Made by a program: the position numbers and the translations under genes. This document shows positions 17,843 through 42,186 of a stretch of DNA of 64,000 nt, piece by piece. Positions within the stretch are counted from its first letter, which is position 1. Each line of letters starts with the position of its first letter. The notes beneath the pieces were generated by a model that saw only the letters and a program-made list of their open reading frames with translations, had not been told where the DNA came from and searched no databases. The DNA comes from Elusimicrobiales bacterium (GTDB lineage: Bacteria > Elusimicrobiota > Elusimicrobia > Elusimicrobiales > UBA9959): NCBI GenBank assembly GCA_028713125.1, contig JAQTOU010000007.1, positions 1 through 64,000 of the forward strand. The letters are read 5' to 3'.

Positions 17843-19237
17843 TTACTTCAGATTCCGCGCAAAGTACTCGAAAGCTTTTGCGAAGGGCTCGGGGGGGGCG
17901 CTGAGGACGCCGGCGCCTACCTGGCCTATGCCGGCTTTTTTATGGGCTACGCCGGTGTCGATGAACGGCAATATGCCTGACTTGGCCACCTTTATCACGT
18001 CTATCCCGGTGGGGGTTCCGCGGAAGTTGAGGTAGGGGATCTTGTAGATATTATTCTCGCCCACGGTGATCTCGTACATGGCGAGAGTGTAGCTGACCGC
18101 GTCGGCCGCCGTGCCTCCGACGAACTGGACTATGGCGGGGGCGGCGGCGATGGCGAAGCCGCCCAGGCCATTGGTCTCGGTGATGGCGGAGTCGCCGATA
18201 TCCGGGTTGGCGTCGGCCTTGGTGTAGCCGGGGAAGTAGAGAGCGTCGGGGACCTGGGCCGGGCCGGTGAACCACTTGCCCCCGGTACCCGAAAGCTGCA
18301 CGCCAAAATCGGTACCATTGCGCGCCATAACTACGACCAGGCTGGAATCCTTCACTCCGCGGCCGGCGTCCAGAGAGGCCTTGGAAAGCGCCATAGAAAG
18401 ATTCAGGAAGAAATGATCGTTGCCGTTGATAAATTCCAGGACCTTGGCGGCGGTTTCAGTATCCCGCGCTGTCTTTATAACGGCGGGCGCTATAGCCCGG
18501 TAAAACAAAGAAGTCGCGGCGCGGTTGCGGTTGTGCACTTCGTCGCCCATGTGCAGCGCCTGCGCCACTATGGCCTTCAGATCTATCGTTCCTAGCAGCT
18601 CTATCGCGGCTTTCAGTGTCGGATAAAGCGCGGCCTCCATCCATTTGAGGCGCTCTATAACGTCGGGCGAGTAGGCGCCGTAGCGCAGCACTTTGCCGAG
18701 CCCCTCGTTCTGCGTCGCGTAGGCGTAATTACCCGCCGCCTCGTTCTTTATAATAAAGACCGGCATGGAGGCCGAGATGATGCCGGCCATTGGCCCGACG
18801 GCGCCGTGTTCGTGGCAGGGCTCGTATTTAATTTTACCGGAAGCGGCCAGTTTCTCTGCTTCTTTGGGATCTTTAGCCAGGCCCTCGTACATCAGGGCCG
18901 CCATAATGCCGCCGCGCATCGGGCCGCACATTCGTTCCCAGGTCACCGGGGGGCCGGCGTGAAGTATGAGGTCCCTTTTCATGCCGGGGATAACGTCAAG
19001 CGCCGCGCCCATGCCGACAAGCGCCGGCTTCGCCTCGAGGATTTTCGCCAGGGCCTTTTCATTCGCCTTTCCGATGCGGGCGGAATATTTAAGGACTTTC
19101 GAAAAAAGCTCCGCCTCGCCGGAGAGTGGGGGCTTGAACTGGGCCTGGACGCTTTTCACGCCGGAGTCGGAAAGCCCCTGCCTGAACGACTCCAGGCCGA
19201 TATTGACGACTTTGAGTTCGGATTCAAAGAGTTTCAT
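17843..19237 (-). CDS. DUF1116 protein, AllG/YlbE-like carbamoyltransferase subunit
   Basis: A 464-residue protein of the DUF1116 family (E. coli YlbE, now associated with the oxamate carbamoyltransferase AllFGH). Conserved-looking segments include GAALDVIPGMKRDLILHAGPP, CGPMRGGIMAALMYEG, YEPCHEHGAVGPMAG and NGLGGFAIAAAPAIV. The open frame extends 17 codons upstream, but ATG at 19237 is preferred because it overlaps the FdrA stop as ATGA and gives the family N-terminus (MKLFESELKVVNIGLE). By analogy it helps convert a carbamoyl compound (oxalurate in E. coli) plus phosphate to carbamoyl phosphate. No carbamate kinase is present in the window. Confidence 0.88.
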   Translation of the reverse strand: MKLFESELKVVNIGLESFRQGLSDSGVKSVQAQFKPPLSGEAELFSKVLKYSARIGKANEKALAKILEAKPALVGMGAALDVIPGMKRDLILHAGPPVTWERMCGPMRGGIMAALMYEGLAKDPKEAEKLAASGKIKYEPCHEHGAVGPMAGIISASMPVFIIKNEAAGNYAYATQNEGLGKVLRYGAYSPDVIERLKWMEAALYPTLKAAIELLGTIDLKAIVAQALHMGDEVHNRNRAATSLFYRAIAPAVIKTARDTETAAKVLEFINGNDHFFLNLSMALSKASLDAGRGVKDSSLVVVMARNGTDFGVQLSGTGGKWFTGPAQVPDALYFPGYTKADANPDIGDSAITETNGLGGFAIAAAPAIVQFVGGTAADAVSYTLAMYEITVGENNIYKIPYLNFRGTPTGIDVIKVAKSGILPFIDTGVAHKKAGIGQVGAGVLSAPPEPFAKAFEYFARNLK

Positions 19238-20795
19238 GAATTCACCTTCTTCGCGCCCAGCCTGACGATCTCGCCGGCCAGCCGGCACGCCCCGGCATTG
19301 GACGGCATTACCAGAACTCCCGCCGCCTCGAGGCCTTTCACGACTTTAGAGCGCACCTGCGGATCGGTCTCGGTGCCGGTTACGGAGGCGACTATAGACA
19401 GCTCGCGGTTGCGGAGGAACGCCTCCGCTATGGCCGGCACTATGTCTTCCAAGGGCTTAAGGTTGGATCCGTAGCCCAGCACGACGTCAAGCAGCAGCAC
19501 CGAGACTTAGGCTTTCTCGCTTCAGAAACTATCATTTTATTGCGCAGGCTGAAGTCTATCATCGGGTGCGGACGGCCCACGGTAAACTCGTCCTCGCCCA
19601 TGTCAATCACGGCGTTCCCGGACAGCTTCAGCGAATCTTTAAGCTTCCATTTCTTATCGAGCGGGGCATTGGACCAGGTATCGCCGATCAGTTCCGGCAG
19701 TATCAGCTGCGCCTCGCTGACGAAAGTGCCTCCGGAAAAAAGGCCGCGCAGGCGCGAAGCCTTCTTTTTTTTAGCGGCTTCCTTCTTCGCCAGCTCGCCG
19801 ACCTTCAGGGTCATGTCGTAGATTATCTCGCGCGCCCTCCCCAGCTTCCACCCCTTGCCGAGGCAGACGGCTTTGTATGCTGCCTCTTCAAGAGTTTTAG
19901 CCGGATAAAAGTCGTCCTTTATCTTTTCTTTTATCTCACCGCCAAGGAATACGGCAACTACCGGCTTCCTTATTTTCTTTATTTCCGCGGTTATCTTTTT
20001 GAGCACCTGCAGATGGGGGGGCTTGGAAACTATAAGCAGGACTTCCGTCGCCGGGTCGGCTGCCAGCATTTTCAGGGCCTGCAGGAGCGTGAGCGCTCCG
20101 ATCTCGATCTTTACGTCGCGCGAGCCGGTGCCTATGGCCTGCGAGATCCCGGCTCCCTCGTTGGAGATCAGGACGGTAACTTCCTGGAGGCCGGTCCCGG
20201 AGGCAGCGACGACCCCGATATTCCCGCGCCTGACCGAGTTGGCGAAAGCTATGGGCGCGCCGTTTATTATCGCGGTGCCGCAGTCCGGGCCCATCAGGAG
20301 CAGACCTTTTTTAACCGCCGCCGTCTTCAGGGCCAGCTCGGTCTCGACCGGGACATTGTCGGAGAAGAGCATTACGTTTAAATTTTTATCCAGGCAGTCC
20401 GCGGCCAAAGCGCCGGCGAAGCGGCCCGCCACGGAGATAACGGCGAGGTTGGCGCCGCCCAGCATTTTTACCGCGTCGTCCAGCCCGGCGGCTTTGCGGT
20501 CCGCGCCGGAGGCCGCCTCGGAGGGCTTCTTGTTCAGGAGGTCGTCCGCGGCCTTCAAAGCCGCCGCGGCGGCCTCTTGGGTTTTGGCGCTGACCGCTAT
20601 CGCCAGGTCGCTGTCTCCCGCGCTTAGGATCTCCTGCGTGAGGAGTCCGGAAGCCTTGATTATGCCCTTGTTCTCTTTAGTGGCCATGACCACGGCGGAG
20701 TCTATTACCCCGGAGATGGCGTTAATTTTTTTCGCCACCTGCATCAGCGAAACCGAGTCAAAATATGCGCCTTTTTTAATAACCGTCTTTATCAT
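19234..20795 (-). pseudogene. fdrA: FdrA/AllF-like protein, frameshifted near 19500-19510
   Basis: Rossmann-type CoA-ligase-like protein, a subunit of the AllFGH-type carbamoyltransferase. The first 440 or so codons are one frame, with LMGPDCGTAII, VVAASGTGLQEVT and PVVAVFLGGEI. After SEARKPKS the frame turns to low-quality sequence (RCCCLTSCWATD), while the -1 frame continues the family C-terminus (VLLLDVVLGYGSNLKP ... GEIVRLGAKKVNS). The total of 1562 bases is one short of 521 codons, so a single lost base restores a 520-residue protein. The cause may be a true mutation or an assembly error; the site is not a classical slippery sequence. Both flanking partners are intact. Confidence 0.85.
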
Positions 20796-20814
20796 ATGTT
20801 CTCCATAGGCAATA

Positions 20815-21636
20815 TCAGGCCGTAAGCACGTCGAGCAGCGCGAAGACCAGGCCGGCGCAGAAATCCGCCCCGGAAGTATGCCCGCTTCTAAGCGCGTCCG
20901 CGGCCGCCGCCTCCAGTTCCTTCCTGCTCTTTCCGGACAGGGCCTTAAGAAGCCGGCGGACCTTCGCGTTAACCTTTCCTTCGTAGGCGCAGCGCAGCGA
21001 AACGTTCGAGATGAGGTTATTGCCCTCGGCGTAAAAGAAGATCTGCTCTATCCGTGCTTCCGTGTCAAAACGCAGGTTCCGGAGCGCGAAATTAAATCCC
21101 GTCAGCAGGCCGCTGATAAAGTCATCTCCGGACGGAGTAAGCCCGAGGCCAAGGCCCCGCAGTATCCTGACTGCATGCGAATAGTCCCCCGCGTACAGGT
21201 ATACGACGGCTTTTTTAAACCGGGCCAGGAGGTGTTTTTCGAAGACGCGGGTGAAGGCTTTTTCCAGCTCCGGGTAGTAAATGAAAGCGAGGCTCATGGG
21301 CGGGGCCTTGCGCACGAGTATTTCGGTCAGCGCGATCGTATTGGCCTTTACGGTTTCCGGCTCGGCGTCCAGCCGCGGCATGCCGGAGGAATAAAGCACG
21401 GCCGGCTCCTTGCGCAACCGGTTCTCGTCAACATAGAAATAGAACCGCGAGGCGCGCAGGCGGGAGGCTCCCGCGGGCAACTGTTTCAGGACCAGGTTGA
21501 ACGGCCCGGCGCCGGTGCGCGGCGGCACAAGAGATACGATGATCCTGCCCTTCCGGAAGTTCAGGGCGTTGGCGAACGCCGAGTGCAGGCGGTAATCGCC
21601 CTCGGGAATGCTGTCGCCGTAAGAAAGTAGATCCAT
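20815..21636 (-). CDS. DUF2877 protein, AllH/YlbF-like carbamoyltransferase subunit
   Basis: A 273-residue DUF2877 protein (E. coli YlbF). The characteristic segment is GLGLGLTPSGDDFISGLLTGF near residue 155, with a C-terminal motif SGHTSGADFCAGLVFALL. It is the third member of the FdrA-DUF1116-DUF2877 set and starts 20 bases before FdrA. In E. coli the order is fdrA-ylbE-ylbF; here DUF2877 comes first. A palindromic element (C) separates it from the amidase gene. Confidence 0.85.
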   Translation of the reverse strand: MDLLSYGDSIPEGDYRLHSAFANALNFRKGRIIVSLVPPRTGAGPFNLVLKQLPAGASRLRASRFYFYVDENRLRKEPAVLYSSGMPRLDAEPETVKANTIALTEILVRKAPPMSLAFIYYPELEKAFTRVFEKHLLARFKKAVVYLYAGDYSHAVRILRGLGLGLTPSGDDFISGLLTGFNFALRNLRFDTEARIEQIFFYAEGNNLISNVSLRCAYEGKVNAKVRRLLKALSGKSRKELEAAAADALRSGHTSGADFCAGLVFALLDVLTA

Positions 21637-21653
21637 ATTATTACACCGCGCGA

Positions 21654-21767
21654 GGAGCTGACCGGGTTAGCAAAACCTTCTTGAGGGCGAGGCTTGCATA
21701 GCGCCGAGCCCGAGAGATGAGGGAGGCCACGGTGTGGCCGACCGCGTTTTGCGTTCCGGTCAGCTCC
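21654..21767. repeat. Palindromic element C (single forward copy)
   Basis: The simplest copy: a perfect 12-bp outer stem, GGAGCTGACCGG with CCGGTCAGCTCC, then GTTAGCAAAAC against GTTTTGCGTT, and the GGCCACGGTGTGGCC hairpin at about 21733-21748. It lies three bases from the stop codon of the nitrilase-family gene and inside an otherwise tight operon. Confidence 0.85.
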
Positions 21768-21770
21768 GAA

Positions 21771-22532
21771 CTACTGCCAGGGGAAAACTTTTCTTTCGCC
21801 GATGAACGGGAATCTTTCCCGTGATTTGGCCACAAGTCCCTTGTCCACCGGGACCTCGGAGATAAAAATTCCCTCGGCCGTGCCGGCGTCCACCACGGTC
21901 TTTCCGAGCGGGTCGAAGCACATGGAGTTGCCGGAATACTCGAGCTTGCCTTCAAGCCCGACGCGGTTCACGCCGATGCAGTAGGCCTGGTTCTCGATGG
22001 CGCGGGCGCGCAGCAGCGTCATCCAGTGCTCGGAGCGGCGCATTGGCCAGGCCGCGATGACGACATAGACGTCCGCCTTCTTGGCCATGTTCCAGAACAG
22101 GTAGGGAAAGCGCAGGTCGAAACAGACGGCGGGCATCACGCTCAAGCCCTCGAGCTCGAACACTTCCTGCTTCGTGCCTGGCGTGTAGTGCTTATCTTCC
22201 CCGCCGAAAGCGTAAAGGTGTATCTTGGAATAGGTGTTCACCCTCTTCCCTTTCCGGTCCAGGGTGATCAGGTTGTTATAGCCCTTCTCCACGCCGCCGT
22301 AGGAAACGTTGAAGTTATACTCCGCGGCAAGGCCGGAAAAAAAAGCGTGGTCCTCGTCCGTAAGCTCGGCTACCGCGGTATCCATAGTGAAGCCGCTCAG
22401 CGTCATCTCCGAGAAGACCAGCCAGTCGATGTCCCCGGCGCATTTGCAGGTGGCCAGCAGGTAGGCTATCTTCTTCTTGTTCGCTTCTTTGTCTTCCCAT
22501 TTCTGATCGTACTGGCACAGCGCGAGTTTCAT
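21771..22532 (-). CDS. Carbon-nitrogen hydrolase (nitrilase family, omega-amidase-like)
   Basis: A 253-residue amidase with the Glu-Lys-Cys triad: Glu in FSEMTLSGF (about residue 41), Lys in TYSKIHLYAFGGED, and Cys in AVCFDLRFPYLF. The CFDLRFP form and the length resemble omega-amidase/YafV, which hydrolyses 2-oxo-dicarboxylic monoamides; beta-ureidopropionase is an alternative. In this operon it could remove an amide or carbamoyl nitrogen from a ring-opened intermediate. It starts 29 bases after xdhA, with AAGGAGAAAAT before ATG. Confidence 0.88.
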   Translation of the reverse strand: MKLALCQYDQKWEDKEANKKKIAYLLATCKCAGDIDWLVFSEMTLSGFTMDTAVAELTDEDHAFFSGLAAEYNFNVSYGGVEKGYNNLITLDRKGKRVNTYSKIHLYAFGGEDKHYTPGTKQEVFELEGLSVMPAVCFDLRFPYLFWNMAKKADVYVVIAAWPMRRSEHWMTLLRARAIENQAYCIGVNRVGLEGKLEYSGNSMCFDPLGKTVVDAGTAEGIFISEVPVDKGLVAKSRERFPFIGERKVFPWQ

Positions 22533-22560
22533 ATTTTCTCCTTAAAATTCCGGGAAGCCG

Positions 22561-24960
22561 CTACTTTTTGGCCGCTTTTACCGCCAGCGCGACTTTTTCT
22601 TTGGTGACCGGCATCGATTTGATGCGTACGCCGACGGCGTCTTCCACCGCGTTGGCGATCAGCGGCGCGCACGGGATCATGGTATGTTCGCCCACGCCGC
22701 GGGCGCCGAACGGGCCGTCGGGCTGCGCGACCTCGATGATGATCGGGACCACCTGGTCCGGCATGTCCATCACGGTAGGGATCTTGTAGTCCGAGAAGTT
22801 TGGATTGAGCAGCCTGCCCTTCTCGTTATAGCGCATATCCTCGTAAAGCACGGTGGCGAAGCCCTGCAGCAGGCCGCCCACTATCTGGCCCCTGACGAGG
22901 TCCGGGTTTATAGCCTTGCCGCAGTCCACGGCCAGCGCTACTTTCTTGATCTTCATCTTTCCGGTCTCGCGGTCAACTTCCAGGATGATGCCGGCCGAAC
23001 CCGTGGTGTAGTGCACGTTCGGGTGGCCGCCCTGGCCGGTCTCGGGGTCGCTGATGGCCGAGGCGAACTCGGGCATGAACACGCCGGAACCCATGATCGG
23101 GCCGCCCTTGAAGGTATGGTCTTCGGCCTGGATGCCGTTAATGACGAAGTCGCTGAAGCGCAGCGCGAAGTCCGGCTTTGTGCGGCACTTCACATGCTGG
23201 TCCTCAAGGTAAAGGGCGCTCTTGTCGAGACAATGCACCCGCTGCACCAGGTCCAGGATGCGTTCGCGCGCTTCGAGCGCTGCGCGTTTGACCGCATTGC
23301 CGCAGCCCCAGGTCACGTGCGAGCCGACGGTCTGCCACTCGTACGGGTTGCGGTCGGTGTCGGGGGTCTCGACCCGGATCTTGCTCACGGGGACGCTCAG
23401 AACTTCGGAAGCTATCTGCGCCATCACGGTGAGCAGGCCCTGGCCGATCTCCATCCCGGAAACGAGGATATTGATGCTGCCGTCCTCGTTGAACTTCAGG
23501 AAAGCGCTGGAGCTGGCATTGGGCGGCATGGCGGGGGATTTCCAGAAACAGACCTGGGCCTTGCCGATTGCTTTCTTCGGGTCTTTGGATTTTTCCTTAA
23601 CGCCCCAGCGGATCTCCTTCCGTACGCGCTCGATGGCGTCCCTGATGCCGGTGGGGTTCATGTGCGCGCCGTAAGGCAGGGTGTCTCCCTCCTTGATCGC
23701 GTTCTTCATGCGGAACTCGACGGGGTCGAGGCCCAGTTCCCGCGCCATCCGGGTAATATGGGACTCCAGGCCGAAAAGGAATTCGGAATAGCCGAACCCG
23801 CGGTAGGCGCCGCAGGGCGGGAGGTTGGTATAGGTGCACATCGAGTCGATGCTCAGATTATCCACCTTGTAGGGGCCGCTGGCCGAAAGGCCGGCAGCGT
23901 TCACGACGTTGGCTCCGTACTCTACGTAAGCGCCCGCGTCCCAGTGCAGCTTGAAGTCCAGGGCGGTGATCTTGCCGGCCTTGGATACGCCCATTTTTAT
24001 TTTAGCGGTGCACCCGAGACGCTGGTAAGTGTTGTAGAACTCCTGCGCGCGGCTCCACAGGAGCTTCACGGGCCGCCCGGGCACGGTGAGGGCCAGCGCG
24101 GCGGCGATGATCTCCATCGTGACGCCGGCCTTGCCGCCGAAGCCGCCGCCGATGTAGGTGCTGATAACGCGAACGTCCTTGTGGCTCAGGCCGAAGGATT
24201 TTAGGGTTTCAGCGAACACGTGGCGCTGCGTGAAGGGGGACTGCGAAGAGGTCCACATCGTCAGGCGGCCGGAGGCGTCGTAGAGACCTATGGCCGAGTG
24301 CGGCTCGATAGCGCAATGCGCGTAGCGCGGCACGGAATAGGTATCTTCCATCACCAGGTCGGCGTCCCTGAAACCCTTGGCCAGGTCGCCCTTGCGGATC
24401 TTGCGCCAATGGGCGATATTGGTGCCCGGCTTGGGAAAGAACCAGGGCACGTGCGTATAGCTTTTCAGGTCGGGGTGGACCAGCGGGGAATCCTTCTCCA
24501 GCGCCTTCACCGCGTCCATCACCGCGGGCAGTTCCTCATATTCCACCTTCACTAGCCCGGCGCCGCGGAGGGCTATCTTAGGGTCGGTGGCCACTACGGC
24601 CGCCACCTGCTCGCCGACGAAGCGCACGGTGTCGGTGGCGAAGACGTAGCGGTCGTTCATGTACAGCCCGAACTTCTGCGTAAAGTTGCCGCCCGTGACC
24701 ACTTTCACCACGCCGTGCAGCTTCTCCGCCTTCGAGATGTCGATGGATTTTATCCGGGCGTGCGCGAACGGGCTCTCCACCAGCGCCGCGTAGAGCAGGC
24801 CCGGCCCGAACTCCAGGTCGTCAGTATACTTGGCGGCGCCCTTTATCTTTTCCCAGCCGTCTATGCGCGGGACGGACTGGCCGACTACGGTAAGTTCTTC
24901 CCCGGCCCTTATAGATTTGGCGCCTTTCTTAGGCTTGGTAATAAGTTTCTGCAGGTCCAT
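22561..24960 (-). CDS. Molybdenum hydroxylase, Mo-cofactor subunit (XdhA-like)
   Basis: A 799-residue large subunit of a xanthine dehydrogenase/nicotinate dehydrogenase-type enzyme that hydroxylates N-heterocycles with water-derived oxygen. Seen: N-terminal alpha/beta hammerhead domain (GAAKYTDDLEFG), the YIGGGFGGK motif, the PPCGAYRGFG segment with the substrate-site Arg, METGQG-like GMEIGQG, and the catalytic Glu in GARGVGEHTM near the C-terminus. These identify the family but not the substrate. It is followed by the amidase and preceded immediately by the [2Fe-2S] subunit. Confidence 0.92.
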   Translation of the reverse strand: MDLQKLITKPKKGAKSIRAGEELTVVGQSVPRIDGWEKIKGAAKYTDDLEFGPGLLYAALVESPFAHARIKSIDISKAEKLHGVVKVVTGGNFTQKFGLYMNDRYVFATDTVRFVGEQVAAVVATDPKIALRGAGLVKVEYEELPAVMDAVKALEKDSPLVHPDLKSYTHVPWFFPKPGTNIAHWRKIRKGDLAKGFRDADLVMEDTYSVPRYAHCAIEPHSAIGLYDASGRLTMWTSSQSPFTQRHVFAETLKSFGLSHKDVRVISTYIGGGFGGKAGVTMEIIAAALALTVPGRPVKLLWSRAQEFYNTYQRLGCTAKIKMGVSKAGKITALDFKLHWDAGAYVEYGANVVNAAGLSASGPYKVDNLSIDSMCTYTNLPPCGAYRGFGYSEFLFGLESHITRMARELGLDPVEFRMKNAIKEGDTLPYGAHMNPTGIRDAIERVRKEIRWGVKEKSKDPKKAIGKAQVCFWKSPAMPPNASSSAFLKFNEDGSINILVSGMEIGQGLLTVMAQIASEVLSVPVSKIRVETPDTDRNPYEWQTVGSHVTWGCGNAVKRAALEARERILDLVQRVHCLDKSALYLEDQHVKCRTKPDFALRFSDFVINGIQAEDHTFKGGPIMGSGVFMPEFASAISDPETGQGGHPNVHYTTGSAGIILEVDRETGKMKIKKVALAVDCGKAINPDLVRGQIVGGLLQGFATVLYEDMRYNEKGRLLNPNFSDYKIPTVMDMPDQVVPIIIEVAQPDGPFGARGVGEHTMIPCAPLIANAVEDAVGVRIKSMPVTKEKVALAVKAAKK

Positions 24961-24961
24961 A

Positions 24962-25429
24962 TTACTTCCCCTTGACCGTCTCTTCTATGGCTTCCACTAT
25001 CGGCTCGTAGCCGGTGCAGCGGCAGAGGTTCCCGGCGATGGCTTCTTTTATGTCATGTGTGGTCGGCCTGGAATTGTTCTCGAGCAGCTCCGTCGCGGAA
25101 AGTATCACGCCGGGCGCGCAAAAACCGCACTGGAAAGCGTTCTTTTCGTGGAAAGTCTTCTGCAGCCTCTGCGTCCATTTGCGGCTGTTGGCGCCTTCGA
25201 GCGTCACGATCTCGGCCCCGTCGGCCTCGACGGCCAGGGCCAGGCAGGAGCGGATGGTCTTGCCGTTCATCAGCACCGTGCAGGTGCCGCAGTCGCCGCG
25301 GTCGCAGCCCGCCTTGGGGCTCTTGATGCCGAGTTTCCCGCGCAGCACGTCCAGGAGCACGTCGCTAGGCTCGACCTGCAGCGAGACTTTTTCTCCGTTC
25401 AGCCAGAATTGTATATTGTGTTGTTTCAT
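24962..25429 (-). CDS. Molybdenum hydroxylase, [2Fe-2S] subunit
   Basis: A 155-residue electron-transfer subunit with two [2Fe-2S] clusters. Cluster motifs: plant-ferredoxin type GCDRGDCGTCTVL in the N-terminal half and the C-terminal CGFC ... CRCTGY four-helix type. It sits one base before xdhA and 11 bases after the FAD subunit, so the three subunits form one unit. Confidence 0.93.
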   Translation of the reverse strand: MKQHNIQFWLNGEKVSLQVEPSDVLLDVLRGKLGIKSPKAGCDRGDCGTCTVLMNGKTIRSCLALAVEADGAEIVTLEGANSRKWTQRLQKTFHEKNAFQCGFCAPGVILSATELLENNSRPTTHDIKEAIAGNLCRCTGYEPIVEAIEETVKGK

Positions 25430-25440
25430 GGTTAGCGCTC

Positions 25441-26334
25441 CTAGCAGATATTCTCCGTCCCATATTTCGCCCCTTTCCCGAAAAGGCGGGCCACGGCCGA
25501 CCCGAGCGCGCGGCCGAGCATTATCTGCGTCATATGCAGGCGGTACTCTTTTGAAGAGCGGATATCGCTGATAGGGGAAACTTCGCCGAGGATCGTTTCT
25601 TTTGCTTTGGAAAGCAGCTTCTCGCCAAGCCTGGCGCCGCTAAGGACGGCCTCTGTACCGGGGCAGCGGGCCGGCTTTGGACCGAGTGCGCAGGTGGCCA
25701 GCCGGTAAGTATTGTCCGCGAAGGCCAGGACGGCGATGCCGCCCTGCGCCAGGTCCTCTCCCTCGTAGCGGGAAAGCTTCATGTAGCACCCGGCGTGCTT
25801 CTTCTCCGGCAGCTTCAGCTCGATAGAGGTAACTATCTCTTCCGGCAGGAGCGCGGTTTTTTTAGGGCCGGTGAACCAGTCCGCGATGGGGATGCGGCGC
25901 TCGCCCTTCAGGCTGCGGGTCAGCACTTCAGCTTCATAGACGGCCAGTACAGGGGCGGAGTCGGCCGACGGAACGGCAGAACAGATATTCCCGGCCACGG
26001 TAGCCCGGTTCCTCACGCCGACCGAGGCTACCGTCAGCGACGCCTCCCAGAGGAGGGGGAACTTGCTCTTGATGAGCGGGGAGGCTATCAGGTCGGAGAA
26101 AGTTACCAGCGCGCCCAGGCGCAGGGTCCCGTCCCGCAGCGTAAAGCCGGCCAGCTCCGGCAGGGCCTTTATGTCCACCACGACCTCGGGGCGGGCAAGG
26201 TTTTCCTTAAGGTGAACCACCAGGTCCGTGCCGCCGGCGAGAACCCTGGCCTTCTCCTTGTAAACCGAAAAGACATGGAGAGCTTCGTCCATGTCCTTCG
26301 GCTTAATGTATTCAAATTCCGTGGTAATGGGCAT
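25441..26334 (-). CDS. Molybdenum hydroxylase, FAD subunit
   Basis: A 297-residue FAD-binding subunit passing electrons to NAD or another acceptor. The FAD site shows VLAGGTDLVVHLKE at the N-terminus and TVAGNICSAVPSADSAPVL in the middle, then the CO-dehydrogenase flavoprotein C-terminal domain. I did not see extra cysteines for the 4Fe-4S insertion of 4-hydroxybenzoyl-CoA reductase. It is separated from the cyclase-family gene by 96 bases containing an inverted repeat. Confidence 0.9.
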   Translation of the reverse strand: MPITTEFEYIKPKDMDEALHVFSVYKEKARVLAGGTDLVVHLKENLARPEVVVDIKALPELAGFTLRDGTLRLGALVTFSDLIASPLIKSKFPLLWEASLTVASVGVRNRATVAGNICSAVPSADSAPVLAVYEAEVLTRSLKGERRIPIADWFTGPKKTALLPEEIVTSIELKLPEKKHAGCYMKLSRYEGEDLAQGGIAVLAFADNTYRLATCALGPKPARCPGTEAVLSGARLGEKLLSKAKETILGEVSPISDIRSSKEYRLHMTQIMLGRALGSAVARLFGKGAKYGTENIC

Positions 26335-38639: not shown

Positions 38640-39095
38640 TCACTTCGTAAAATCGAAGCTTTTGGGGGGCCTTGAGCCCCTGTAAACTATCTTCCGGTCC
38701 TTCGAAATTATCAGGGTGGCCGGCAGCCCCATGACGCCGTACTTTTTCGCCACCGCCTTGTCCTTGTCGAGGACAACAAGATACGGGTATTTGGTCTTTG
38801 CGACGAACTTGGAGGCCTTGGCCTCGTTGTCTCCCACATTGACCCCGACGAAGAGGACCTTGTCGGCGCCGGGGCTCTTCATAAAGGCGGCCAGATCGGG
38901 AACCTCCTCTTCGCAGGAGGCGCACCAGCGGGCCCAGAAATTAAGGACTATATAGCCTTTACCCAGGTTCTCCTCGAGCTTGAACTGCTTGCCGTCGAGT
39001 TTAGCCAGCGTGAAGTCGCTGACCGCTACCTCCCCGGCGTAAAGCAGACAGCCGGCCGCCAGGACCGCGAACGCTGAAATAATTATTTTCTTCAT
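38640..39095 (-). CDS. TlpA-like periplasmic thiol-disulfide protein
   Basis: A 151-residue thioredoxin-fold protein with an N-terminal signal (MKKIIISAFAVLAAGCLLYAG; LAAGC could act as a lipobox) and active site WCASC in NFWARWCASCEEEVPD. It probably reduces periplasmic disulfides with electrons from CcdA, which precedes it by 18 bases, and serves the ApbE/DUF3570/DUF4266 genes in the same cluster. Confidence 0.88.
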   Translation of the reverse strand: MKKIIISAFAVLAAGCLLYAGEVAVSDFTLAKLDGKQFKLEENLGKGYIVLNFWARWCASCEEEVPDLAAFMKSPGADKVLFVGVNVGDNEAKASKFVAKTKYPYLVVLDKDKAVAKKYGVMGLPATLIISKDRKIVYRGSRPPKSFDFTK

Positions 39096-39113: not shown

Positions 39114-39791
39114 CTAGGCCAGCTTTCCGGCCGCGTATATGAAATAGATGCCGGCGCCGAGTATCAGGAAGGCCAGCGCCTTTTTCACCTTGACCATCCA
39201 CGCCCCTGATTTCGGCATCAGGCTGCCGGCGAAAAAGCCTATGATGAGCAGCATGCTGCTCAGCCCCATGGAGAAAGTGAAAAGAAGCAGCGTCCCGGTA
39301 ACCACCGCTTTTTTAGCGGCGACATAGACCAGCAGGGTACCAAGCACCGGGGCCGTGCAGGGAGAGGCCACCATGCCCGAAGTCAGGCCCATTACAAAAG
39401 GGCCGATGAAAGGGGACTTCTTCAGGGACTCCGGGGCCAGGCCCGGGAGATGCGGCATCGGGATATAGTACCAGTCCATCATGCTGCCGCCGAGAAAAAG
39501 GAGCAGCACACCGAAGGCCAGGTAGACGTAGGTGTTGGTGGTCAGCGAGCCGAAGAGCGAGCCGGTCAGGGCGGCGGCCATACCGAGCGCCGAGTAGACG
39601 AGCGCCATGCCCAGGATATACGAGAGGCTGGCGATGAAGCGGCTGCCCGCGGTGCCCTCGCGCGAGCCGAGATAGCCGACGACGATCGGCAGCAGCGGGT
39701 AGACGCAGGGCGTAAGGGAAGTAAGCAGCCCGGAGACGAAAACCGCCAGAAAAGTCATGAACGAAACTGTTTCAAGATTAATTTGCGGCAT
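39114..39791 (-). CDS. ccdA: CcdA-type membrane thiol-disulfide transporter
   Basis: Carries reducing equivalents from cytoplasmic thioredoxin across the membrane. The 225-residue protein has six predicted TM helices and the paired conserved cysteines in LTPCVYPLLP (first helix) and ASPCTAPVLG (fourth). It overlaps apbE by 14 bases and feeds the adjacent TlpA-like protein. Confidence 0.92.
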   Translation of the reverse strand: MPQINLETVSFMTFLAVFVSGLLTSLTPCVYPLLPIVVGYLGSREGTAGSRFIASLSYILGMALVYSALGMAAALTGSLFGSLTTNTYVYLAFGVLLLFLGGSMMDWYYIPMPHLPGLAPESLKKSPFIGPFVMGLTSGMVASPCTAPVLGTLLVYVAAKKAVVTGTLLLFTFSMGLSSMLLIIGFFAGSLMPKSGAWMVKVKKALAFLILGAGIYFIYAAGKLA

Positions 39792-40734
39792 ACGCTTTAA
39801 CTCCCTTATGCTCGGCTGTCTTCATATTGCAGTTAGTGACCGCGCCGGACGAGGCGATGATCACGCCTGAGGCCTCGCGCCTGCGGCGGAGGAAAGCCGC
39901 CCCGTCCTCCGGGCCCAGCGCCATCGCGGAAATGGTGTAGGCGTTGGCGAGCGCCGCGGTGGACGCCAGCACCGTTACGCTGGCGATGTCATCCCTTACC
40001 CCGCCGGTGCGGGCGTCGATTATGTGGTGATACTTTTTACCCTGGTGGATAAAATAGCGCTCGTAATCGCCCGAAGTGACCAGCGCCCCGCCGCGCAGGT
40101 CCATGAAGGCGGCCGCCCTGCCGTCTTTCGCGAAGGGATTCTTGACCGCGATCCGCCAGGGGCGCGGGGCCCCGGGGCCCGAGGAGACGCGGAGGTCGCC
40201 GGCGCCGTTAACGCAGAAATTTTCAAGGCCGAGATCTTTCATAACGCGGAAGGCCCTGTCCACTCCGTAGCCCTTGCCGATGGACCCCAAGCCGATGCGC
40301 ATGCCCTTTTCGGGCAGGCGTATCGTGCAGGCCGCCCTGTCCATCTCTACTCTTGAATGATCCACCAGGCGCATCGCCTGCTCCAATTCCCCGGGGGAGG
40401 GGGGAATCCCGGTGCGGAAAGCCTCGCGCCAGAGCATGCCCGCGGCGGCGAAAGTTATATCGAAAGCGCCCCCGGACTCCCGGCAGATCTCCAGAGCGAA
40501 AGAGACCAGGTCTAAAAGCTCGGCGGAAACTTTTACGGGGGGGCCGCCGGCCGCGGCGTTCAAGGCGTTCAGGGGGCTGTCGCGGAAATCGGTGAGCAGC
40601 GCCTCCACCCTTTCGATCTCCGCATAGGCCGTCATGACAGCCGCCCCGGCGGCGCCGGAAGTCCCTCCCGGGTAGGCGGTTATTTCGAAAGGGGACCCCA
40701 TGCAGGTCCGTGAGACGATCAGCGGTTCGGCCAT
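39778..40734 (-). CDS. apbE: FAD:protein FMN transferase
   Basis: Covalently attaches FMN from FAD to Thr/Ser of target proteins. The 318-residue protein shows MGSPFEITAYP at the N-terminus, GSIGKGYGVDRA, NGAGDLRVS, and the catalytic/FAD region TSGDYERYF ... HHIIDARTGG. It has no visible signal peptide, although many ApbE proteins are periplasmic lipoproteins; targets are therefore either modified before export or in the cytoplasm. It is co-encoded with DUF3570, its start overlapping the DUF3570 stop. Confidence 0.93.
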   Translation of the reverse strand: MAEPLIVSRTCMGSPFEITAYPGGTSGAAGAAVMTAYAEIERVEALLTDFRDSPLNALNAAAGGPPVKVSAELLDLVSFALEICRESGGAFDITFAAAGMLWREAFRTGIPPSPGELEQAMRLVDHSRVEMDRAACTIRLPEKGMRIGLGSIGKGYGVDRAFRVMKDLGLENFCVNGAGDLRVSSGPGAPRPWRIAVKNPFAKDGRAAAFMDLRGGALVTSGDYERYFIHQGKKYHHIIDARTGGVRDDIASVTVLASTAALANAYTISAMALGPEDGAAFLRRRREASGVIIASSGAVTNCNMKTAEHKGVKAYAAN

Positions 40735-41912
40735 CAGAATTTCATGTTAAGCGCCGCCTGGAAGACCAGCGCCTGCAGGTCGTTAGAGCGCTTGTAATAA
40801 AGCGCGGTGCCGCTCCACGACCACTCATGCCGGCTGTTCCCGCCCTGGTCCAGGGCGTAGGAGACCTGGACGCCGGCCTCGTTAGCGGTAAATTTATCGA
40901 GGTCAGAGTCCGAAGTCATCCTGCTTTTGATCCCGGAAGAAAAAGAATCGGCGTAATATCTGGCCGCCGTCTGGGAATAGCGGCGGTAAAGGACGCGGAA
41001 AACGCCTTTTTCCTCCGAGAACGAAACCGCCAGAGAGGGTTCCCAAGTGTGGGCGCGTATAGCCCAGCTGTCCGTGTAATATCGGTAGTCCAGGTGCAAG
41101 GCCAGTCTCTCGCCGAGGCTGCGGACATAGCGCGCATTAGCCGTGAACTTGTCGCGCCCCTGCGGAAGGACTTCGTTCGCCCGGTCGGTAACTACCGTGC
41201 CGGTGCTGACCGTGTTGCGGGTGCCGCCGAGAAAGCCGGCCTGACGGGTATAACTTAAGCCGCACAGAATAAGGTCCTTCTCGCTGAGGAGCTGCGAGGC
41301 GCTGATATTAACGGAGTTAGTGGCCTTGGATTTGAAACCAAGGAATCCGGCTTTGCTCAGGCTCCACTGATTGGCGGAATCGGAAAAATGAAAAACTCCG
41401 GCCGAAAGGACGAAATTATCCTCGGCCATGAATTTCTGCACGTTCAGCCCGCCGTGAAGGGACCTGTAGGAAAGCTCGCTGGAATAACCCGCAGTGGGAG
41501 TGAAAACCCAGGTGCCTACCTTCTTCGAATAGCCGCCGTCGAGGCCTATGCGCGTCTGCCAGCCGGGAAGGAGACTTTCTCCTCCTCCGCCTTCGCCCTC
41601 TCCTCCCGCGGCCGCGTTGCCGCCCGAGGCGCCTGTCCCTGAATCGAAGGCCTTGGCCGAAGCCGAGCTCAGGGCGTCGAACACCACGCTGCCGAAAATG
41701 CTGGTGTTATGGTCTATCTGCGAGTTGATATAGAGCACCGGCTCGTAGAGGTCGATGGACTGGTCGCCGGAGCCGTCGTAGACCTGCTTGCCGCCATGCC
41801 CGCTCTGGAACATGGTGTTGACGGCAAATTCCGTATTGACTTTGGAAAGGGCAGCGCGCTCAAAGCAGAGCATAAGCGCGACGGTAAAAAGGAAGCGTCT
41901 AATTGCAGCCAC
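40734..41912 (-). CDS. DUF3570 outer-membrane protein, possible ApbE substrate
   Basis: A 392-residue protein with a signal peptide (to about residue 23) and a C-terminal part of alternating beta-strands ending in ALNMKF (terminal Phe), as in outer-membrane barrels. It belongs with DUF3570 by context and sequence character. Residues 79-85 read DALSSAS and residues 90-96 DSGTGAS, each close to the ApbE flavinylation consensus D-x-x-(S/T)-G-A-(S/T). A Gly/Glu-rich linker follows. It overlaps the DUF4266 gene by 14 bases. The flavinylation is a hypothesis. Confidence 0.82.
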   Translation of the reverse strand: MAAIRRFLFTVALMLCFERAALSKVNTEFAVNTMFQSGHGGKQVYDGSGDQSIDLYEPVLYINSQIDHNTSIFGSVVFDALSSASAKAFDSGTGASGGNAAAGGEGEGGGGESLLPGWQTRIGLDGGYSKKVGTWVFTPTAGYSSELSYRSLHGGLNVQKFMAEDNFVLSAGVFHFSDSANQWSLSKAGFLGFKSKATNSVNISASQLLSEKDLILCGLSYTRQAGFLGGTRNTVSTGTVVTDRANEVLPQGRDKFTANARYVRSLGERLALHLDYRYYTDSWAIRAHTWEPSLAVSFSEEKGVFRVLYRRYSQTAARYYADSFSSGIKSRMTSDSDLDKFTANEAGVQVSYALDQGGNSRHEWSWSGTALYYKRSNDLQALVFQAALNMKF

Positions 41913-42123
41913 AGCCGCCTCCCGCGCTCTGGCCCACGCCGCCCGAAGCGCCCTCTCTTATGGAGTGAAAATCGTTCAGAAAAGCCTGGCGGCCGCCCAT
42001 CGGTTCGAGCTGCATGATCTGCCTGGAAAGAGTTTCCCGGTCTACCTGGTGAACCCGCACGCAGCCGCAGGCCAGCGCGGAAAGCGCGGCCAGAACAAGG
42101 ACCCTGATATTTTTTCGACTCAT
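41899..42123 (-). CDS. DUF4266 small lipoprotein with CGCN C-terminus
   Basis: A 74-residue protein that starts at 42123 (MSRKNIRVLVLAALSALACGC). The signal ends in a Cys consistent with a lipoprotein. The mature part has RETLSRQIMQLEP, HSIREGASGG and a glycine-rich C-terminus finishing GGGCGCN, the DUF4266 hallmark. The family accompanies DUF3570, ApbE and thioredoxin-like genes; the role of the CGCN end is not known to me. It is first in this minus-strand cassette. Confidence 0.85.
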   Translation of the reverse strand: MSRKNIRVLVLAALSALACGCVRVHQVDRETLSRQIMQLEPMGGRQAFLNDFHSIREGASGGVGQSAGGGCGCN

Positions 42124-42186
42124 AGATCTCCAAGTCAAAGTATATTAGTATAAGTGTACCAGATTAAACCGCGTCCCGCAAGGCTT

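Follow-up and report, generated by a model that had tools for sequence, protein, structure and literature searches.

A predicted doubly flavinylated DUF3570 barrel in an Elusimicrobiota genome and its signal-less ApbE

Analysis of the window, that is the whole 64,000-nucleotide stretch of an Elusimicrobiales contig (JAQTOU010000007.1) considered here, points to its DUF3570 protein as the substrate of the FMN transferase ApbE encoded next to it. In the explanation that we regard as probable for the system as a whole, ApbE would add FMN to the DUF3570 precursor at two serines (Ser85 and Ser96), most likely in the cytosol and on the unfolded polypeptide. After export, the flavinylated precursor would fold as an outer-membrane barrel of 16 strands that carries both flavins at the outward-facing end, where a DsbD-type route would supply them with electrons. 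That DUF3570 is an ApbE substrate has in essence been published: Meheust et al. 2021 reported that a pair of motifs is conserved in 228 DUF3570 proteins, and the DUF3570 protein of Chlorobium luteolum was flavinylated in E. coli by its own ApbE, a modification that was lost only when both serines were mutated (PMC8238504). The window holds a further member of this known system. An earlier sequence-only reading had proposed both the substrate and the barrel, which are supported, but had missed the published precedent. Two points deserve notice here: an outer-membrane protein likely receives its FMN in the cytosol, and ApbE has asparagine in place of a catalytic aspartate.

Examination of the locus reveals five closely packed genes on the reverse strand, with three overlaps and one 18-base gap at their junctions. 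The DUF3570 gene (40734..41912) has a GTG start and encodes 392 residues that match the family (PF12094, E 1.6e-23) with 83.6 bits against a curated cut-off of 25. It overlaps by one base (TGATG) the gene for the FAD:protein FMN transferase ApbE (39778..40734; PF02424, E 1.9e-69), which scores 234.6 bits against a cut-off of 25.6 and has homologues in the PDB. The sequence-only reading had seen this overlap correctly while overlooking the three other genes, which code for a small DUF4266 lipoprotein (41899..42138; PF14086, E 2.5e-13) with a C-terminal GGGCGCN containing a CxC pair, a predicted inner-membrane thiol electron carrier of the CcdA/DsbD_TM type with two PC cysteine sites (39114..39791; PF02683, E 1e-43), and a TlpA/ResA-like, predicted extracytosolic thioredoxin with an N-terminal signal and a CASC active site (38640..39095; PF00578, E 1.5e-25). 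The cysteines of the DUF4266 tail, of CcdA and of the TlpA-like protein are all intact, a GGCGC-ending tail is common to DUF4266 genes adjoining DUF3570, and the relatives that make up the f1 family show the identical five-gene arrangement. The clustering of DsbD, a thioredoxin-like protein and DUF4266 with DUF3570 has already been described (PMC8238504, Figure 4D), and the window, where CcdA/DsbD_TM, a thioredoxin-like protein, DUF4266, DUF3570 and ApbE all occur, carries the Elusimicrobiota copy of that system; it differs in that its thioredoxin-like protein matches the AhpC-TSA/TlpA family rather than PF13899. The DUF4266 protein was itself considered as an additional flavinylation target on account of its tail (EGASGG), and was rejected since the serine is replaced by alanine in several homologues.

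Elsewhere on the same strand of the window (17843-26334) lie genes for the oxamate carbamoyltransferase subunits AllG and AllH, with a CoA-ligase-type protein between them that we take to be FdrA-like, along with a carbon-nitrogen hydrolase and molybdopterin hydroxylase subunits. This cluster looks like one for allantoin or purine degradation in an Elusimicrobiota genome.

Two tandem motifs mark the predicted attachment sites of the DUF3570 protein, and their placement at 41625-41678 proved exact. Site 1 is DALSSAS (residues 79-85; 41658..41678, reverse strand) with Ser85 as the predicted FMN acceptor, and site 2 is DSGTGAS (residues 90-96; 41625..41645, reverse strand) with Ser96 as the predicted acceptor. 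Their resemblance to the ApbE target consensus holds: site 2 matches D-x-x-[S/T]-G-A-[S/T] exactly, and site 1 does so with serine in place of glycine. A scan of the non-overlapping open reading frames of the window for D-x-x-[ST]-[GS]-A-[ST] recovered the DUF3570 protein only, twice, and when the mature protein was shuffled with its composition kept, one motif arose in 1.5% of the shuffles and two within 15 residues in 0.002%. The rest of the genome was covered through the known substrate families: it encodes a single DUF3570 copy, and searches of the entire genome (listed completeness 100%) found no FMN_bind/NqrC/RnfG, DUF2271, PepSY_TM or NqrB/RnfD member. The absence of another known substrate or partner, first remarked for the window, thus extends to the whole genome.

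As sources of homologues we used 295 genomes from the phylum, DUF3570 being present in 12, and one scan of genome contigs that gave 51 loci; the removal of near-duplicates left 47 proteins, and the C. luteolum protein stands outside this alignment. As the Pfam match spans only residues 187-376, the placement of the motif region rests on the multiple alignment. Site 1 fits [ST]-[GSA]-[AS]-[ST] in 47/47 homologues, with an acceptor serine or threonine in every one, so that the loss of the motif, which would have spoken against the assignment, is not seen. Compared with C. luteolum, which shares the family, two motifs of the same type and an apbE gene in the cluster, the window differs in having SSAS at site 1 in place of [S/T]GA[S/T]. 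Serine at the glycine position is, however, the commonest form among the homologues (33/47), indicating that the site 1 of the window is typical rather than degenerate. A relaxed site 2 is found downstream within the loop in 38 of the 47, and both acceptor sites are retained in every barrel of the f1 family. Against flavinylation we count the serine for glycine at site 1, and that both acceptors of the window are serines and not the preferred threonine. Together, the conservation of the two sites and the C. luteolum precedent lend good support to DUF3570 as the ApbE substrate, and we infer that the protein of the window is flavinylated at Ser85 and Ser96. The number and place of the predicted flavin sites vary across the family, and betaproteobacterial members belong to those with a single site at these two positions. 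Three loci from Burkholderiales (Limnohabitans; L071, L072 and L074) have an extra DSKSGAS about 38 residues upstream of site 1 and are without site 2.

The DUF3570 protein has an N-terminal signal peptide, as seen by inspection. A sequence search of the PDB found no solved DUF3570 structure, and an AlphaFold2 model built on an alignment of 39 homologues shows 16 strands (pLDDT 83.7, pTM 0.79). VIA-align relates the model to BamA, PelB-type, BcsC, CymA and OmpG barrels with Z of 17-22 over 225-299 residues at 3.5-4.2 A, and Foldseek and VIA-align agree in retrieving outer-membrane barrels generally, with no one family foremost. We accordingly find the barrel supported as a fold prediction, with DUF3570 predicted to be a 16-strand outer-membrane beta-barrel. 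Strand parity puts the four longest loops of the window protein (14, 35, 25 and 26 residues) together on one side, opposite turns of 2 to 9 residues. In outer-membrane barrels the long-loop side is usually extracellular, and given that all four longest loops sit there we take it to be so in DUF3570. In the model, strand 3 ends with site 1, and the long loop that leads on to strand 4 holds site 2, in a part of low confidence (86-113). Conserved positions lie mostly in the outer half of the barrel, and the invariant ones mostly on the same side as both sites. The model would thus place both flavin sites at the outward-facing end.

In light of these features, we propose that electrons probably pass from cytosolic thioredoxin to CcdA, from there to the TlpA-like protein, on to the CxC tail of DUF4266 and so to the two FMNs, from which they would reach an acceptor located on the outer membrane or beyond it, with iron, perhaps ferric, the most plausible one. 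The first of these steps probably hold, since the gene families and the published model imply them, whereas the acceptor and the final steps are more conjectural. Extracellular electron transfer by DUF3570, as the sequence-only reading had imagined it, is a guess that the modelled position of the sites would allow. We give a considerable, if clearly less than even, chance to a flavinylated system that serves not extracellular acceptors but redox handling within the envelope, either in metal assimilation or in thiol homeostasis. The published survey, in which the function of DUF3570 is given as uncertain, lists 25 DUF3570 clusters with the ferrous iron transporter VIT1 (PMC8238504), and the examined part of the window showed no recognisable multihaem or nanowire gene; both points favour such a role, but both flavin sites and most invariant residues are modelled on the long-loop side, which would be the extracellular one.

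Two features of the window ApbE had escaped the sequence-only reading, namely the missing signal peptide and a changed active site. The triad of the Listeria FmnB consists of Asp301, Ser257 and His273, with Asp301 binding Mg2+, and alanine substitutions, that of Asp301 among those tried, strongly reduced or abolished activity (PMC8906456). In the window ApbE the serine (Ser221) and the histidine (His237) are present, and the Asp301 position is occupied by Asn264 (39943..39945, reverse strand), as established from an alignment to 7esa, the family alignment and a check of the residue itself. Asparagine at this position is common to all f1-family ApbEs and counts against the explanation that we favour. 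This could be read to mean that ApbE in this clade is inactive or altered in activity, in which case the barrel would lack covalent FMN here and work as a thiol-linked redox protein, and the related f19 genome could be cited in favour of this reading: of the two ApbEs in its one DUF3570 region (L017:3499-4500 and L017:5033-6076), a signal-less one of the Asn264 type adjoins CcdA and an exported one with aspartate adjoins DUF3570. We hold such a loss to be unlikely, given that the remaining core motifs are kept, that ApbE is conserved within the f1 family, whose barrels all keep both acceptors, and that asparagine or glycine at the triad aspartate recurs in other ApbE lineages; other signal-less lineages have glycine there, and the signal-less ApbEs of Bacteroidota have aspartate. 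On homology, then, the window ApbE likely functions as an FMN transferase.

Only 11 residues precede the conserved core of the window ApbE, and the frame is open for just 4 further codons upstream, so that the protein cannot carry a signal peptide; neither a signal peptide nor a lipobox, the marks of an exported ApbE, was found. This, along with the asparagine at the catalytic aspartate position, sets it apart from the C. luteolum system, whose cognate ApbE is described as signal-peptide-truncated (PMC8238504). The window ApbE is in wide company: judged by N-terminal hydrophobicity in the set used for the tree, a signal peptide is absent from 35/46 DUF3570-linked ApbEs and present in 11/46, the two states being cleanly separated and changing few times on the tree. 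As a control, ApbEs unlinked to DUF3570 were taken from 18 genomes of the DUF3570 set, and all of those checked (14/14) carry a signal peptide, a lipobox, a twin-arginine signal or a membrane anchor, as against 11/15 linked ApbEs of the control genomes that are without any of these (Fisher p 5e-5, a value inflated by near relatives).

The missing export signal makes it most likely that FMN is attached in the cytosol, to the unfolded precursor. As the sites are predicted to face outside, where neither a cytosolic nor a periplasmic ApbE could reach them later, modification would in any case have to precede barrel assembly. The ApbE motif is a linear tag of which seven residues suffice (PMC12052999), and DUF3570 with its signal truncated became flavinylated in the cytosol of E. 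coli though mostly insoluble (PMC8238504), both of which argue that attachment to an unfolded precursor is feasible. We would extend the proposal to most of the sampled DUF3570 systems besides this one, with a chance that we put only just below even: a cytosolic ApbE would add FMN ahead of Sec export, and the flavinylated polypeptide would cross both SecYEG and the BAM pathway to display its flavins at the surface. No description of cytosolic FMN attachment to a DUF3570 precursor was found in the papers on DUF3570 and ApbE that were consulted, including a review in which the only cytosolic ApbEs are those of Klebsiella pneumoniae, acting with a soluble fumarate reductase, and of trypanosomatids (PMC12052999). 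The K. pneumoniae enzyme resembles the window ApbE in lacking a signal peptide, but its substrate stays in the cytosol, whereas that of the window is predicted to be a signal-bearing outer-membrane protein.

The genome encodes two other ApbE homologues (L080:6348-7382 and L081:6522-7592), both with lipoprotein signal peptides, and exported ApbEs are used by some DUF3570 clusters; one might hence suppose that one of these lipoproteins, and not the adjoining cytosolic ApbE, flavinylates the barrel in the periplasm. This appears improbable to us, as the two are very distant paralogues (branch length 4.57) without the TSGDY and IGKGY core motifs and without the canonical catalytic aspartate, and as relatives too keep the linked ApbE in the operon. 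No recognised substrate family for the two was found in the genome, and they may not be FMN transferases at all. The supply of FAD bears on the same question. Exported ApbEs need extracytosolic FAD, for which Listeria uses the EetB-FmnA route (PMC9973259), and no member of the EetB family (PF07456) was found in the genome of the window, which further argues against a periplasmic reaction. The FmnB/PplA/EetB system of Listeria monocytogenes (PMC8906456, PMC9973259) is akin to that of the window in using covalent FMN for electron transfer outside the cytosol, but its FmnB is extracytosolic and depends on FAD export by EetB-FmnA. Among Elusimicrobiota genomes, EetB is present in 3/3 with an exported linked ApbE, in two of them inside the cluster, and in 0/9 with a signal-less one (the genome of the window and eight others); the association (Fisher p 0.005) is phylogenetically confounded, and EetB was not found in Bacteroidota with either exported or signal-less linked ApbEs, for which reasons we treat it as suggestive support.

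Two of the DUF3570 clusters with exported ApbEs (L016:3507-5114 and L018:4953-6504) also contain genes for NusG_II and EetB (Hpre_diP_synt_I, PF07456) proteins. Large lipoprotein-like proteins adjoin DUF4266 at L017:7984-9507 and L018:8671-11904. The former combines fibronectin-type and DUF2271 domains, which gives its cluster a second predicted substrate of ApbE, and the start of the latter resembles it.

Finally, it is very improbable that the two motifs are random sequence of a Ser/Ala/Gly-rich loop, a notion to which the Gly-rich tract of low model confidence after site 2 might give rise, but which the conserved position of the acceptor, maintained across phyla, and the shuffle frequency (2e-5) refute.

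When ApbE flavinylates exported proteins, the reaction is generally regarded as extracytosolic and reliant on exported FAD. If attachment in the DUF3570 systems precedes Sec export, they would not need a periplasmic supply of FAD, and genome surveys restricted to ApbE or FMN-binding proteins with a signal would undercount them. Flavins on the surface side, where the model places them, would make the DUF3570 barrels a flavin counterpart of the outer-membrane cytochrome conduits.
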